Below, piece by piece: positions 50,501-55,110 of a stretch of DNA of 64,000 nt. The stretch covers positions 4,774,001-4,838,000 of the forward strand of contig CP036163.1 in NCBI GenBank assembly GCA_019056595.1, read 5' to 3'. The notes under the pieces are model-generated. The model saw only the letters and a program-made list of their open reading frames with translations, searched no databases and was not told the origin of the DNA. Within the stretch, counting starts at the first letter, position 1, and each line of letters opens with the position of its first letter. The position numbers were made by a program, and so were the translations under genes. The DNA comes from Pectobacterium atrosepticum (GTDB lineage: Bacteria; Pseudomonadota; Gammaproteobacteria; Enterobacterales; Enterobacteriaceae).

Positions 50501-51847
50501 ATGCAAAGGATCGCGATAATCGTGCTGTTTGGGCTGCTTTCTTCGGGCGCTAACGCATTAGGGCTGCTTGATGCCTGGGAACTGGCGCTGCGTAACGATG
50601 CGCAATTTCGTGCGGCGGGTTTTGAGCGCGCGGCGGGTCAGGAAGAGGAGACGATCGGGCGTGCCAATCTGCTCCCTAATCTCCAGTACGGCTATAGCGC
50701 CAATAGCAGCCATTCCAAAGTCACCCAAACAGATAGCGTCAGCAATAACACGCTAAAACGCGATTACAACAGCTACACGTCAACGCTATCGCTGCGCCAG
50801 CCGCTGCTGGACTATGCGGCCTGGGCTCGTTATCAGCAGGGGGCTGCCCGCACGCTGATGGCCGATCAGCGTTTTCGCGATCGTAGTCAGGATCTGATGG
50901 TGCGGCTGTATAAAGCCTGGAGCAGTGCGCTGCTGGCGCAGGAAAAACTACAATTGTTGGATGCGCAGCAGCGGGCCTATCAGGAGCAGTTGGCGATGAA
51001 TAAACGTCTCTTGCTAGCAGGCGAAGGGACGCTAACGGACGTGCGGGAAACGGAAGCGCGGTTTACGCTGATTGAAGCACAGCGCATTGAGCAGCAGGAT
51101 AATCTGGATTCTGCGATCACCGATTTAGAGAATATGACGGGCACGGTGCTCGATATCGCTGCGCTGCATCCTCTGATGCTCACGCAACTTCCGTCTACGG
51201 AATCCGTCAAGCAGACGCTGGCGCAGTGGCGCGATCTTGCGGTGCAACACAATGCCAAACTGGCGACGCAGCGAGAAGGATTGGCGGTCAGCCGCTATGA
51301 AATCGAACGCAGTCGCGCCGGGCATTTACCCACGCTGTCGCTGGTGGCATCGTCGCGTAATAGCCGTTCCGAAAGTGAATATAACTACAATCAGAAATAC
51401 GACACACAAAGCGTCGGTTTGCAACTGAATGTCCCGCTCTATTCCGGTGGTTCCGTCTCGGCATCGATGCGGCAGGCGGCGGCGGAATACCAGCAAAGTC
51501 AGGCGGAGTTGGACGATCAAACTAAGCAAACGCTGGCTGAATTGAAAAAGTACTACAACCTGTACAACAACGGATCGGCGAAAATTAAAGCCTGGCAAAT
51601 GACGGCCTCGTCGGCGCAGGAAGCTGTCAAGGCAACACGGTTGAGCGTCGCGGGCGGCGAACGCATTAATCTGGATATTCTGCTAGCTGAGCAAGACTGG
51701 TATAACGCCCGACGAGAGCTGGCGGAAGCGAAATACAGCTGGCTTCAGGCATGGCTATTACTACGCTATACGGCTGGCACGCTGAACGAGAAAGATATTT
51801 TGGAATTGGCGGCCTGGTTTCAGCCTGCTGGCAAGCCCTCATTTTAA
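50501..51847 (+). CDS. prtF: Type I secretion outer-membrane protein PrtF
   Basis: 448 residues. A signal peptide ending ANA is followed by two TolC-type repeats: LLDAWELALRNDAQFRAA opens the first, and helices rich in Ala and Gln fill the tunnel domain. QLNVPLYSGGSVSASM is the typical mid-sequence TolC motif. Last gene of the protease export cluster; it starts two bases after prtE. Confidence 0.94.
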   Translation: MQRIAIIVLFGLLSSGANALGLLDAWELALRNDAQFRAAGFERAAGQEEETIGRANLLPNLQYGYSANSSHSKVTQTDSVSNNTLKRDYNSYTSTLSLRQPLLDYAAWARYQQGAARTLMADQRFRDRSQDLMVRLYKAWSSALLAQEKLQLLDAQQRAYQEQLAMNKRLLLAGEGTLTDVRETEARFTLIEAQRIEQQDNLDSAITDLENMTGTVLDIAALHPLMLTQLPSTESVKQTLAQWRDLAVQHNAKLATQREGLAVSRYEIERSRAGHLPTLSLVASSRNSRSESEYNYNQKYDTQSVGLQLNVPLYSGGSVSASMRQAAAEYQQSQAELDDQTKQTLAELKKYYNLYNNGSAKIKAWQMTASSAQEAVKATRLSVAGGERINLDILLAEQDWYNARRELAEAKYSWLQAWLLLRYTAGTLNEKDILELAAWFQPAGKPSF

Positions 51848-51957
51848 ATGGTTCAATTCTGTAGGATATTGCGCCTCCGTCATACTTAAACTCCTTTAAA
51901 ATCATCGAATCTTCCCGTTTTGCATAATGGCCTCCATTCTTATCAGGAGGCTTTATC

Positions 51958-52287
51958 GTGAAAAAAATCAAAAAACCACGTCTTACCGGCTGGATTATGA
52001 CATCGGCTTTTCTCTTTACTGTTATCGGGCTGATTTCACCACAACAGCTTCCCGTCACCGTCTATAAACTCTCGCTTATCTCACTCGCTGCCGTATTAGG
52101 CTATTGGCTGGATCGTTCGCTGTTTCCTAAAGCTCGCCCCGGCTTATTCCTTGAACAAGGTGATGAACCTGTACCACGTGGACGTTTTCCCGTTCGGGAC
52201 GGTCACCACACGGTATTTGCCGCAGCGATGTTACGACGAGCGCTGATTGTGTCAGCCGTTTGCATCGGCGTAGCGATGGGGCTGTGA
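51958..52287 (+). CDS. Putative phage holin (2-3 membrane segments)
   Basis: 109 residues from a GTG preceded by CAGGAGG. Two or three hydrophobic segments (TSAFLFTVIGLI, LSLISLAAVLGYWL and ALIVSAVCIGVAMGL at the end) separated by a polar loop fit the putative 2/3-transmembrane holin family of Mu-like phages. It would form holes that let the muralytic enzyme out or trigger its action. It is immediately followed by a transglycosylase gene. Confidence 0.75.
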   Translation: MKKIKKPRLTGWIMTSAFLFTVIGLISPQQLPVTVYKLSLISLAAVLGYWLDRSLFPKARPGLFLEQGDEPVPRGRFPVRDGHHTVFAAAMLRRALIVSAVCIGVAMGL

Positions 52288-52288
52288 T

Positions 52289-52900
52289 ATGCGACACCTT
52301 TTTATCCCATTGTTTTTAAATTTAATATTCTTTAGTGCTGTGGCCTGTGCTGACACGATCCCTCGTGCCGCGCAGGCGTACCGTAGTGATGTGATCCGCA
52401 GCGCACGGCTGGATTGGGGCATGAATGCCCCGATTGCTGATTTTGCAGCACAGCTGCATCAGGAAAGCGGTTGGAATCCACGGGCAGTCTCGCCCGTCGG
52501 TGCTCAGGGGTTGGCACAGTTTATGCCGACAACAGCCGACTGGTTCAGCGGTATTGTTCCTGAGCTTCGGACAAATCAACCGTTTAACCCCGCGTGGGCT
52601 ATCCGTGCGCTGACGGGCTACGATCGCTGGCTGTGGGCGCGAATTAGCGCCAGTAACGACTGTGAACGCATGGCAATGACCTTATCGTCCTACAACGGCG
52701 GACTTGGCTGGTTACAACGGGATAAGCAACGCGCGAAGGCCGCCGAGAAGGACATACTTCGCTGGTTCGATCATGTGGAAACCGTCAATGCCGGACGCAG
52801 CGCCGCCAACTGGCGTGAAAATCGCCATTATCCCGACCGCATCTTGCATCAGTTGGCACCACGTTATTTGGTCTGGGGGAGGGCGAGCTGTGTGGAATAG
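52289..52900 (+). CDS. Lytic transglycosylase (phage-type endolysin, SLT fold)
   Basis: 203 residues. Begins with a signal-like segment (HLFIPLFLNLIFFSAVACA), suggesting export by Sec. The SLT domain contains QLHQESGWNPRAVSPVGAQG with catalytic Glu59 and GLAQFMPTTADW, and the later SSYNGGLGWL. It would cut the glycan strands of murein. Its end overlaps the spanin-like gene. Confidence 0.87.
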   Translation: MRHLFIPLFLNLIFFSAVACADTIPRAAQAYRSDVIRSARLDWGMNAPIADFAAQLHQESGWNPRAVSPVGAQGLAQFMPTTADWFSGIVPELRTNQPFNPAWAIRALTGYDRWLWARISASNDCERMAMTLSSYNGGLGWLQRDKQRAKAAEKDILRWFDHVETVNAGRSAANWRENRHYPDRILHQLAPRYLVWGRASCVE

Positions 52901-53564
52901 TCTGTTTATTACTAGCCTGAAATCCTTTCTTTCGCCGCGCGTGGTCGCTGTCCTACTAGCCGTTGTGCTACTACTCGCCGTCTATCTAACCGGCCGTAAT
53001 CAGGGTTACCAACTGGCGCAAGCGCTGGGGGACGCCGCGTTGGCGAAGCAGTTGGCGGCATTTAATTTACTCCAGCAGCAGCAGGCCGAAACCCAAAATC
53101 AGCTATTACGTGCGGCGGCGGAACAATACCAGCAGCAGGTAGAGCGTGGGAATCAACTCGAACAGCGTTATGTGGCAGTGCGTCAAAAACTGGCGGCGGA
53201 TAACGTCGCTCTGCAAAGGAAAATCGACCATGTTACTCAGCAATACATTGACGAAAAAGGCAAGGCTCAGCCTGTGCAGTGCGTGTTTACTCGTGGCTTC
53301 GTGCAGTACTACAACGCCGCTTTCGGTCTGTACGGCGACGGTGCCTCAGACATTACCGCCGTTGCCCGCCGCACTGGCGCAGCGTCCAGTTTCGGTACAA
53401 CCGTTGACGCCGAATTACAGCCTTCAGGCGTCTCCCAGCGCGATATCCTCGCCAACATCAGCGACAACGGAGAGCGCTATCAGGCGCTAAGTGCGCAGGT
53501 TAATGCGCTGTTGGATTACATCGAAGCATTACAACAGGCAGGGGAGGTAACACGTGAAGATTGA
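52890..53564 (+). CDS. Rz-like inner-membrane spanin candidate
   Basis: 224 residues from a GTG at 52890 that overlaps the endolysin end by 11 bases; the upstream extension to 52704 is rejected. One N-terminal membrane helix (VVAVLLAVVLLLAVYL) is followed by about 85 residues of Gln- and Ala-rich coiled coil, the shape of Rz-type i-spanins. The later half, with PVQCVFTRGFVQYYNAA, is not part of a classical Rz and may be a separate domain. An out-of-frame lipoprotein ORF lies inside it. Confidence 0.65.
   Translation: MWNSLFITSLKSFLSPRVVAVLLAVVLLLAVYLTGRNQGYQLAQALGDAALAKQLAAFNLLQQQQAETQNQLLRAAAEQYQQQVERGNQLEQRYVAVRQKLAADNVALQRKIDHVTQQYIDEKGKAQPVQCVFTRGFVQYYNAAFGLYGDGASDITAVARRTGAASSFGTTVDAELQPSGVSQRDILANISDNGERYQALSAQVNALLDYIEALQQAGEVTRED
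53230..53490 (+). CDS. Embedded Rz1-like lipoprotein (o-spanin candidate)
   Basis: 86 residues, entirely inside the Rz-like gene in the +1 frame, as Rz1 is in Rz of lambda. An AAGGA ribosome site precedes the ATG. KKARLSLCSACLLVASC is a lipoprotein signal with lipobox VASC; Cys25 would be lipidated and the +2 Ser favours the outer membrane. The mature 62 residues are rich in Pro, Ser and Thr (LPPLPAALAQRP). No charge-based clue conflicts. A chance frame remains possible. Confidence 0.5.
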   Translation: MLLSNTLTKKARLSLCSACLLVASCSTTTPLSVCTATVPQTLPPLPAALAQRPVSVQPLTPNYSLQASPSAISSPTSATTESAIRR

Positions 53565-53883
53565 AGTGGAATTTTGGTCGCTGGTCGGCCTGCTGCTGTC
53601 GTTTATGAGCTTCCTGTTTGCCGCCGGGCGGATTCTACTTACCCAGATTGAAAAGCGGCTGAACGAGCGTTTTGCCGCGCTGGAAAATGCGCGACAAAAG
53701 AGCGAACAGGGATGGACGCGACTAGAACGTGAGTTTCTGGAGTTTCGTGCCGATTTACCGCTGATTTACGTGCGACGTGAGGATTATATCCGTGGTCAGA
53801 CGGTAATAGAGGCCAAGTTGGATGCACTTTATAACAAACTGGAGTTAGTACAACAGCGGTATTCGGGAGGACATCATGGCTAA
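53554..53883 (+). CDS. Mu-type phage protein (DUF2730-like)
   Basis: 109 residues from a GTG, overlapping the preceding gene by 11 bases. One N-terminal membrane helix (FWSLVGLLLSFMSFLFAAG) is followed by a coiled-coil-forming tail. Size, topology and position fit the DUF2730 (gp25-like) proteins of Mu-like phages. Function unknown. Confidence 0.65.
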   Translation: MKIEVEFWSLVGLLLSFMSFLFAAGRILLTQIEKRLNERFAALENARQKSEQGWTRLEREFLEFRADLPLIYVRREDYIRGQTVIEAKLDALYNKLELVQQRYSGGHHG

Positions 53884-54187
53884 TACGCAGTGTATCCGAC
53901 AGGAGTCGATGCGTTGGCATTTGCTCATCGCATTAAATAAAACACGTCCTTATACCGCGAATGAAATGTTTTTATTGGCCGTGATGCAGCGGCTATATGC
54001 AGGTGCTTCTGAACCGGAGTTACGTCAGGCGCTGGATTATCTGGCCGATCGCAAGATGGCAGTATTGACCAAAGAGATGGGAGGTGTCTGGCTAGCGAAT
54101 CTGACCCGCCTGGGTGTGGACGTTGTGGAATATGCGGTTGACGGTATGGTTGGCATTGCCCGGCCAGAAAAGTACTGGGATCGGTAA
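53876..54187 (+). CDS. Small Mu-type phage protein (VpaChn25_0724-like)
   Basis: 103 residues. Begins RQESMRWHLLIALNKTRPY and contains YLADRKMAVLTKEMGGVWLANLT, a winged-helix-like pattern seen in short phage proteins next to DUF2730. Overlaps the previous gene by eight bases. Function not known; possibly a small DNA-binding protein. A terminator follows. Confidence 0.65.
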   Translation: MANTQCIRQESMRWHLLIALNKTRPYTANEMFLLAVMQRLYAGASEPELRQALDYLADRKMAVLTKEMGGVWLANLTRLGVDVVEYAVDGMVGIARPEKYWDR

Positions 54188-54448: not shown

Positions 54449-54916
54449 ATGAATACCAAACCAATTATCGATGCGGTGATAGCCCGCCTCCAACAGCATT
54501 TACCTGCACGGCGGATCGCGTCCTGTCCAGAAAATATTCTGATCAGTCCAGATCTTCTGACACCTGGCGATGTGCTGGTGGGGTATCGCGGTTCTGAGTT
54601 TTCCGCACCGGAAGATGTGGATTCTCCGGTTCAGACGCAGCGACCGCAGTTGATGGTTGCCGTGCTGCTGGCGGATCTGGATGGCGAAGACGGCGTGCTG
54701 GCCACGCTCGATACCATTCGTCAGGCGCTGGGAGGATACCGACTGCCTGACTGTCATCGCGGTATCCGGTTAGTGCGCGATCGCTATGTTGGTTACACCG
54801 AAGGTCGTTGGCATTACGCCATCGATTGCACCACAGAAACCCTTTTTATCGAAGACCGCGAGCAGACGGATGGTCCGCTGCTTACCACGGTTAATTATGA
54901 GGAGAAAGACGCATGA
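54449..54916 (+). CDS. Mu gp37-like protein
   Basis: 155 residues. IDAVIARLQQHLPARRI at the start and FIEDREQT-type end fit the gp37 family of Mu-like phages, which lies just before the tail sheath gene and is of unknown function (possibly tail-completion). It overlaps the next gene by four bases (ATGA). Preceded by a spacer of about 170 bases after a terminator. Confidence 0.75.
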   Translation: MNTKPIIDAVIARLQQHLPARRIASCPENILISPDLLTPGDVLVGYRGSEFSAPEDVDSPVQTQRPQLMVAVLLADLDGEDGVLATLDTIRQALGGYRLPDCHRGIRLVRDRYVGYTEGRWHYAIDCTTETLFIEDREQTDGPLLTTVNYEEKDA

Positions 54917-55110
54917 AGTATCGCTATACCGGCCCCGCCAGCGGCGTCACGCTGGCAGATGGTCAGGAAATTCTGCTTTGGCCCGCTCAGGTGACTGAAC
55001 TGCCAGCAGATCATGAGTACGTGAAAACACTGATCGCGCTGGGCTATTTGCTGCCTGTCGCGGGTCAGAATCTGGTTGATAGCGCAACGGAGGTGACACT
55101 TGGCCGCTAA
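54913..55110 (+). CDS. DUF2635 phage protein (Mu gp38-like)
   Basis: 65 residues. Small beta-rich protein, RYTGPASGVTLADGQEILLW, matching DUF2635 in size and pattern. It lies between gp37 and the tail sheath gene in Mu-like phages, exactly as here. Overlaps the sheath gene start. Confidence 0.8.
   Translation: MKYRYTGPASGVTLADGQEILLWPAQVTELPADHEYVKTLIALGYLLPVAGQNLVDSATEVTLGR

Follow-up and report, generated by a model that had tools for sequence, protein, structure and literature searches.

In bacteriophage lambda, the gene for the outer-membrane spanin (o-spanin) Rz1 lies wholly inside that of the inner-membrane spanin (i-spanin) Rz, in the +1 frame, and encodes a lipoprotein signal and a Pro-rich mature chain; the endolysin gene adjoins the pair. 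About 70% of embedded spanins start at 0.4–0.5 and end at 0.9–1 of the i-spanin (PMC6139136). In phage Mu, gp23.1 is an overlapping Pro-rich lipoprotein that the original annotation missed and whose role as an o-spanin is supported by amber mutants and complementation with lambda RzRz1 (PMC9239132). A tailocin with spanin genes has likewise been described before: i-spanin and o-spanin genes belong to the lysis set of the BceTMilo tailocin of Burkholderia cenocepacia (PMC5411513), and type 10 secretion systems contain holin, endolysin, i-spanin and o-spanin genes outside phage, with no virion genes (PMC10847048).

Here we describe a frame nested in the Rz-like gene of a carotovoricin remnant in Pectobacterium atrosepticum, within a stretch of 64,000 nucleotides that was analyzed as a whole (the window). 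The nested lipoprotein gene is almost certainly real, and although the embedded spanin design is already known, the o-spanin family paired with phrog_1403 i-spanins is overlooked. The window locus is like lambda Rz/Rz1 in all the features given above. It is unlike lambda in that no family common to the two was found in Pfam, NCBIfam or PHROGs, in that the window i-spanin has 224 residues, and in that the predicted mature window o-spanin is 62 residues long with an LPPLPxxLAxRPxxxxPLTPxY core, whereas lambda Rz1 has a penta-proline stretch in 40 residues (in part from PMC6139136).

With Mu gp23/gp23.1 the window locus shares a Mu-type lysis region, an i-spanin gene that overlaps the end of the endolysin gene, a Pro-rich lipoprotein passed over in annotation and a gp26 homologue nearby, but in Mu the frame taken as gp23.1 extends beyond the end of gp23, and there is a SAR endolysin and no holin (PMC9239132). 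Pairwise comparison of Mu gp23 with the window Rz detected no similarity, and a common ancestry of the two, which we considered, is not detectable. The phrog_1403-like i-spanins of phages B3, KP12 and PhiKM have a similar host frame with a nested lipoprotein, but there the nested frame has no annotated CDS. BceTMilo, likened to the window locus by description, differs in being P2/KL3-like with two numbered spanin genes. The likeness to type 10 secretion systems is one of gene content only.

Results

The window locus and the carotovoricin tailocin

The carotovoricin locus of Pectobacterium lies between tolC_2 and ybiB and includes a holin and a transglycosylase gene; P. atrosepticum keeps only the first seven carotovoricin genes and a second Pectobacterium species the first five (PMC13195805). 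The word "spanin" is absent from the main text of that paper. On its position and its holin and transglycosylase genes, the window locus is assigned to the 5' lysis end of the carotovoricin tailocin, and it has the seven-gene form of P. atrosepticum (Table 1). It differs from a carotovoricin tailocin in the deletion of the tail genes: a full sheath, 97–100% alike, is present in 21 of 25 genus genomes, whereas the window genome has the stub only, with no second sheath match at E 0.001, and a complete tail gene set was not found there. In genome G006, taken as P. betavasculorum because its Rz sequence L006 is identical to that of L030 from this species, the sole sheath is 82% alike and lies elsewhere in the genome, and two further genomes (G003 and G008) have neither this Rz nor such a sheath. 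The one-TM protein encoded downstream of Rz, at the place of Mu gp25, showed no detectable similarity to Mu gp25 in a pairwise comparison.

Table 1. Features of the carotovoricin remnant and of the embedded frame, in window coordinates
Feature	Position	Strand	Basis
TolC-type gene	50501-51847		PF02321
TTAAA..TTTAA dyad upstream of holin (candidate activator site)	51883..51901	+	Identical or one base different in 12/12 aligned loci
Hairpin pairing with the holin Shine-Dalgarno	51929..51952	+	Fold -11.2 kcal/mol
Holin, GTG start	51958..52287	+	PF13272 E 1.4e-41; phrog_1528 E 2.5e-44
Endolysin, SLT lytic transglycosylase with N-terminal hydrophobic segment	52289..52900	+	PF01464 E 3.7e-16; phrog_669 E 8.7e-63; hydropathy
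Rz-like i-spanin, 224 aa, GTG start	52890..53564	+	phrog_1403 E 4e-64; one N-terminal TM-like segment (13-31); Cys131
Shine-Dalgarno AAAGGA of nested gene	53215..53220	+	Sequence; 9 nt 5' of ATG
Embedded Rz1-type gene (putative o-spanin), 86 codons	53230..53490	+	+1 frame of Rz; ORF, conservation and selection
Lipobox V-A-S-C (Cys25), then Ser	53293..53304	+	Translation; VASC or AASC in 42/42
Pro-rich core, nested residues 40-63	53347..53418	+	Nested frame better conserved than host frame
One-TM protein in place of Mu gp25	53554..53883	+	phrog_462 E 3.4e-33
Mu gp26 homologue	53876..54187	+	phrog_436 E 3.4e-33; BLASTP to Mu gp26 E 4e-6, single comparison
Gp37-family tail gene, carotovoricin leftover	54449..54916	+	PF09646 E 1.3e-50
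phrog_895 gene, carotovoricin leftover	54913..55110	+	E 2.5e-29
Tail sheath gene, cut after about 46 residues	55100..55312	+	Sequence and profile matches
ybiB	from 55322		Glycos_trans_3 protein

Fate of the cassette after tail loss

Among the readings of the cassette in this genome, we lean toward a decaying, functionless remnant in which the Rz1 frame is intact because the tail loss is recent. The tail genes are deleted from the sheath on. Counted over the four genes other than Rz, the window terminal branch carries 8 nonsynonymous (N) to 39 synonymous (S) changes, which resembles the remaining terminal branches (151:758). Gp37 can serve no purpose once the tail is gone, but it is equally unrelaxed, with 1 N to 5 S on the window branch against 70:137 on the other terminal branches (21 sequences, with the gapped L026 left out). 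Tail loss may be no more than a recent event. P. betavasculorum, which is also without tail genes, has a raised N/S (27:52 against the same 151:758, Fisher p 3e-4; p 0.03 without its most changed gene). Against decay, the lysis genes and the upstream region are intact, the region upstream of the holin being conserved in all 12 aligned loci, a Mor-family gene with an open frame lies elsewhere in the genome, and the P. atrosepticum remnant is reported to be differentially expressed on polyphenol treatment (PMC13195805).

We regard it as unlikely that the cassette was kept after tail loss as a lysis release device of the type 10 secretion kind, perhaps under damage-responsive control by the Mor-family protein and with Rz1 completing it. 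Such an exaptation is not supported by the branch counts, in which the window branch is normal but so is gp37, and P. betavasculorum looks relaxed. RdgB controls carotovoricin, and we take the Mor-family gene of the window genome (G000:C2:227480-227797) to be rdgB. In the reference list of PMC3349551, one title connects rdgA and rdgB with DNA damage and the production of pectin lyase, and another connects temperature with carotovoricin and pectin lyase. With the nested gene counted as Rz1, every step of lysis is represented by a gene in the published "incomplete" carotovoricin remnant (holin, endolysin, i-spanin and o-spanin), and with the lysis gene set complete, why two species kept it becomes directly testable. 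In the tail-less cassette of P. betavasculorum, the rise in N/S lies mainly in the gp26 homologue and the holin.

An embedded lipoprotein frame in the Rz gene

Residues 13–215 of the host protein match the 212-position profile of phrog_1403, annotated "Rz-like spanin", and on this family match together with the N-terminal TM segment the host frame is classed as an Rz-type i-spanin. An earlier note on this DNA had called the host frame atypical and long; since 224 residues compare with a profile of 212 positions, its length is in fact normal for the family, and the label "atypical" is not supported. Cys131 of Rz, a candidate for intermolecular disulfide formation in the periplasm, is present in all 42 distinct Pectobacterium sequences and is invariant in 25 diverse ones.

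The same note had proposed that an ATG-started lipoprotein frame lies in the +1 frame of this gene, and the translation bears it out. The nested product has 86 residues from ATG to TGA with zero internal stops and begins with MLLSNTLTKKAR, followed by a hydrophobic stretch, the lipobox V-A-S-C with its cysteine at residue 25, and Ser at +2; the lipoprotein signal was called by motif and hydropathy. The mature chain is as rich in Pro, Ser and Thr as had been claimed, with 10 of each among its 62 residues (48% together). The ribosome site fared less evenly: the AAAGGA before the ATG is there in the window, but it occurs in only 6 of the 42 Pectobacterium sequences, the other 36 having AACGGA.

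Loci from 23 of the 25 genus genomes and from public genome and viral contigs gave 46 distinct host sequences. When the nested frame was compared across the 42 distinct Pectobacterium sequences, the ATG was kept in all of them, VASC in 41 and AASC in one, and internal stops occurred in none. The second cysteine of mature Rz1, Cys34, is likewise present in 42/42, but among 23 diverse sequences just 13 have it at that column. When viral contigs were scanned with the host protein alignment, at least 53 loci were found, 31 of which (L092–L122) have 38–50% host identity, and all 31 of these distant loci (27 distinct) carry a nested, ATG-started +1 lipoprotein with a lipobox, among the matches listed. 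The earlier note had set out in advance that homologues with stops or lipobox loss in the nested frame beside an intact host frame would count against the gene; there were none among the 42 Pectobacterium sequences and none among the 27 distinct distant viral ones in the matches listed. In L121 and L122, which are the same prophage sequence twice, a frameshift in Rz fuses the nested frame into the C-terminal part of Rz, so that the host frame is broken as well and the case does not count as loss of the nested frame by itself.

The nested proteins of the distant relatives have in common, with variation, an ACLLxxSCSxTTP motif and the Pro-rich core motif given above. We compared the two frames region by region over the 22 members common to the chosen alignments (25 host and 23 nested sequences), which gave 231 pairs. 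In the Pro-rich core the mean pairwise identity is 0.61 for the nested frame and 0.35 for the host, whereas the host is the better conserved in the signal and lipobox (0.69 vs 0.54 nested), the linker (0.63 vs 0.58) and the C-terminal tail (0.61 vs 0.43). By these regional identities the two frames lead in turn, with a variable linker of the host lying over the nested core. The locus thereby offers a dual-coding example in which the hidden frame leads in one stretch and the linker of the host protein follows.

Distribution and annotation of the nested gene

Beyond Pectobacterium, a search of the order using the host profile found matches in 3 of 394 genomes. Two of these belong to the genus; the third (L069), from another genus, also has a nested lipoprotein. 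The nested gene is present in Klebsiella phage KP12, Escherichia phage PhiKM and Pseudomonas phage B3, as well as in all four E. coli RefSeq records that were inspected. At the DNA level, the Rz region of the relative L100 found a match in 630 of 5426 E. coli genomes; among the 25 E. coli matches listed, 11 cover only query positions 347–445, the piece with the nested start and lipobox.

A CDS for the nested frame is absent from the annotation of KP12, PhiKM, B3 and the four E. coli records. Nor is one annotated for a putative nested frame in phage Tom33, a record chosen because two features lay under its match; together with KP12, PhiKM and B3 it makes up 4 of the 53 phage records with an Rz match. 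The B3 record carries the note "similar to phage BcepMu Rz and Rz1 proteins". In KP12 (L123 2294-2947), PhiKM (L124 2297-2947) and an E. coli locus (L164 1184-1834), the host-frame i-spanin is labelled "(putative) lipoprotein", apparently a correct term that has been attached to the wrong frame.

Family models have the same gap. No model matched the nested protein in Pfam (six nested proteins, counting repeats) or NCBIfam (two), and six nested members gave only weak matches in PHROGs, the best at E 0.0032, nearly all of them to different "Rz-like spanin" families and one to a family of unknown function. With the window nested protein alone, tblastn against 50,697 phage records returned nothing at E 0.1. 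Useful homology came by way of the host frame, since the nested protein by itself found nothing in phages and only these weak PHROGs matches. The spanin searches that the earlier note called for found a recognizable family for the host frame; for the nested frame the weak PHROGs matches were all that they yielded. The o-spanins that partner phrog_1403 appear to be absent from Pfam, NCBIfam and PHROGs, and an overlooked o-spanin family is hereby added to Mu-like phages, E. coli prophages and Pectobacterium carotovoricin tailocins.

Predicted function of the nested lipoprotein

The weak family matches leave some room for a lipoprotein that is not a spanin, one of the other envelope lipoproteins lying in a lysis operon by happenstance, in that no known o-spanin family was matched better than E 0.003. 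We hold this to be very unlikely, because the partner gene is an Rz-like spanin, because the position of the nested gene within its host (0.51–0.89 of the gene length) is close to that of embedded spanins, and because the Pro-rich core is the part in which the nested frame leads. The nested i-spanin/o-spanin arrangement that the earlier note likened to lambda Rz/Rz1 gains support from the phrog_1403 host, from this position and from the holin and transglycosylase neighbors. We therefore prefer the o-spanin reading, and with high confidence: the nested ORF is very probably a genuine outer-membrane lipoprotein gene whose product would be the Rz1 partner of the host i-spanin.

The Rz/Rz1 pair is most likely a two-part device for outer-membrane disruption. 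By homology, the nested product would be translated and lipidated, would form a complex with Rz and would act in lysis. The holin and the transglycosylase endolysin would first open the inner membrane and the wall, after which inner-membrane Rz and outer-membrane Rz1 would link up through the periplasm and break the outer membrane, the same act as that of lambda Rz/Rz1 and Mu gp23/gp23.1. In Pectobacterium, lysis involving Rz/Rz1 would release carotovoricin, of which the window genome keeps just the 5' lysis end.

Selection on the nested frame

The nested ORF lies inside a spanin gene of a lysis cassette, and its length by itself says little. When codons were drawn anew from local usage under an unchanged Rz protein sequence, the interval 53230–53490 stayed open in 3096 of 20000 synonymous shuffles (15%), which makes an open frame of this length weak evidence, and we rejected ORF length as an argument for a gene. 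Only 77 of the 20000 shuffles (0.4%) produced, in frame +1 or +2, a lipoprotein-like ORF that began with ATG and ran for 60 codons or more.

The overlap tests used 42 ungapped sequences of 224 codons from the 46 distinct ones (L027, L028, L029 and L037 were left out). Within the overlap, host third positions are nested second positions and host first positions are the nested wobble. Diversity at host third positions falls from 0.183 upstream of the overlap to 0.083 within it and stands at 0.102 over the 24 codons that follow, and host first-position diversity, the nested wobble, climbs to about 0.23 in host codons 145–176. Substitutions were counted by parsimony on a tree of the 42 sequences. 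The host-synonymous rate falls from 0.30 upstream to 0.12 in the overlap, or 0.38 of the upstream rate (92 vs 315 changes, p 2e-18), but this drop is not confined to the overlap, because the rate is also low, at 0.14, in the 22 codons after it (32 changes over 223 weighted sites). A cleaner signal of selection is the nested N/S rate ratio among host-nonsynonymous changes, which is as low as 0.30 within the overlap (nested N and S changes 42 and 120; p 1e-12), compared with 0.92 before it (69 and 38) and 0.72 beyond it (14 and 12). These p-values assume independent changes and are to be read as strong rather than exact. When host-only evolution was simulated on the tree, with the observed numbers of host changes and nested constraint absent, all 42 leaves remained intact in 0 of 400 runs, the mean being 21.6 intact.

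A frame open by chance, conserved only through the strong conservation of the Rz protein, would sit well with the 15% of open shuffles, with the near invariance of the host block CVFTRGFVQ.YNAA that shares DNA with the lipobox region, with the better conservation of the host in signal, linker and tail and with the low host-synonymous rate after the overlap, but it is scarcely credible against the depressed nested N/S ratio, a Pro-rich core conserved where the host is not and the failure of every host-only simulation to keep all 42 frames. The nested frame is under purifying selection of its own.

Related loci and the holin leader

Two related loci differ at the spanin position. The second, Mu-like prophage of the window genome (L126 4047-5633; G000:C2:2589046-2590632) has a related holin and transglycosylase, and a different, coiled-looking protein stands in the place of Rz, again with a nested +1 lipoprotein-like frame (LTACG); the spanin pair looks to have been swapped as a module. 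A related tail-bearing locus in Salmonella Infantis (L162, AFYI01000007.1), with a Mor-family gene, transglycosylase, Gp37, sheath and tube, has a gap of just 12 bases from the transglycosylase to the gene annotated after it, and the Rz/Rz1 pair seems to be absent from it.

The leader of the holin gene can form a hairpin that pairs with the holin Shine-Dalgarno sequence, a fold equalled by 3 of 200 shuffles. A stem of 6 bp or more over the holin Shine-Dalgarno is found in 38 of 42 distinct leaders (absent from L110, L119, L122 and B3, L125), and its letters differ between families. When the upstream part was shuffled, no more than 5% of shuffles matched the stem in 25 of the 42 leaders; the window's own stem was reached by 42 of 500 shuffles, and in a group of 10 close relatives that includes the window, 3 pass the 5% level. 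In a covariation alignment of 32 of the 42 leaders, with relatedness left in, 87.6% of cells pair (82.2 when shuffled), two-sided changes occur in 23 cells against a shuffled mean of 5.0 (0 of 500 shuffles as high), and the covariation score lies above all shuffles. The number of pairs with a two-sided change, 3, was equalled in 119 of 500 shuffles and that of further pair types, 10, in 381 of 500, so neither is in excess. Pairing falls to 40–54% when the partner is slid by 1–3 columns, a drop that is partly expected because the stem was drawn from these sequences. Rfam had no match at the holin leader, and no report of a holin Shine-Dalgarno hairpin appeared among the paper titles listed in literature searches. 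Because the covariation measures are mixed, we offer the hairpin as a candidate for translational, lysis-timing control of the holin, a lead and not a result.

Upstream of this hairpin, the TTAAA..TTTAA dyad listed in Table 1 is the only exact copy in the window genome. Elsewhere in that genome the search for dyad sites gave one further match, at 3 mismatches, which does not exceed the yield of the backward control. Among 8 further leaders, 7 have TTTAAAA preceded by an AT-rich half; the Mu-like prophage L126 is without it. The dyad may be a site for an activator of the Mor/C type.
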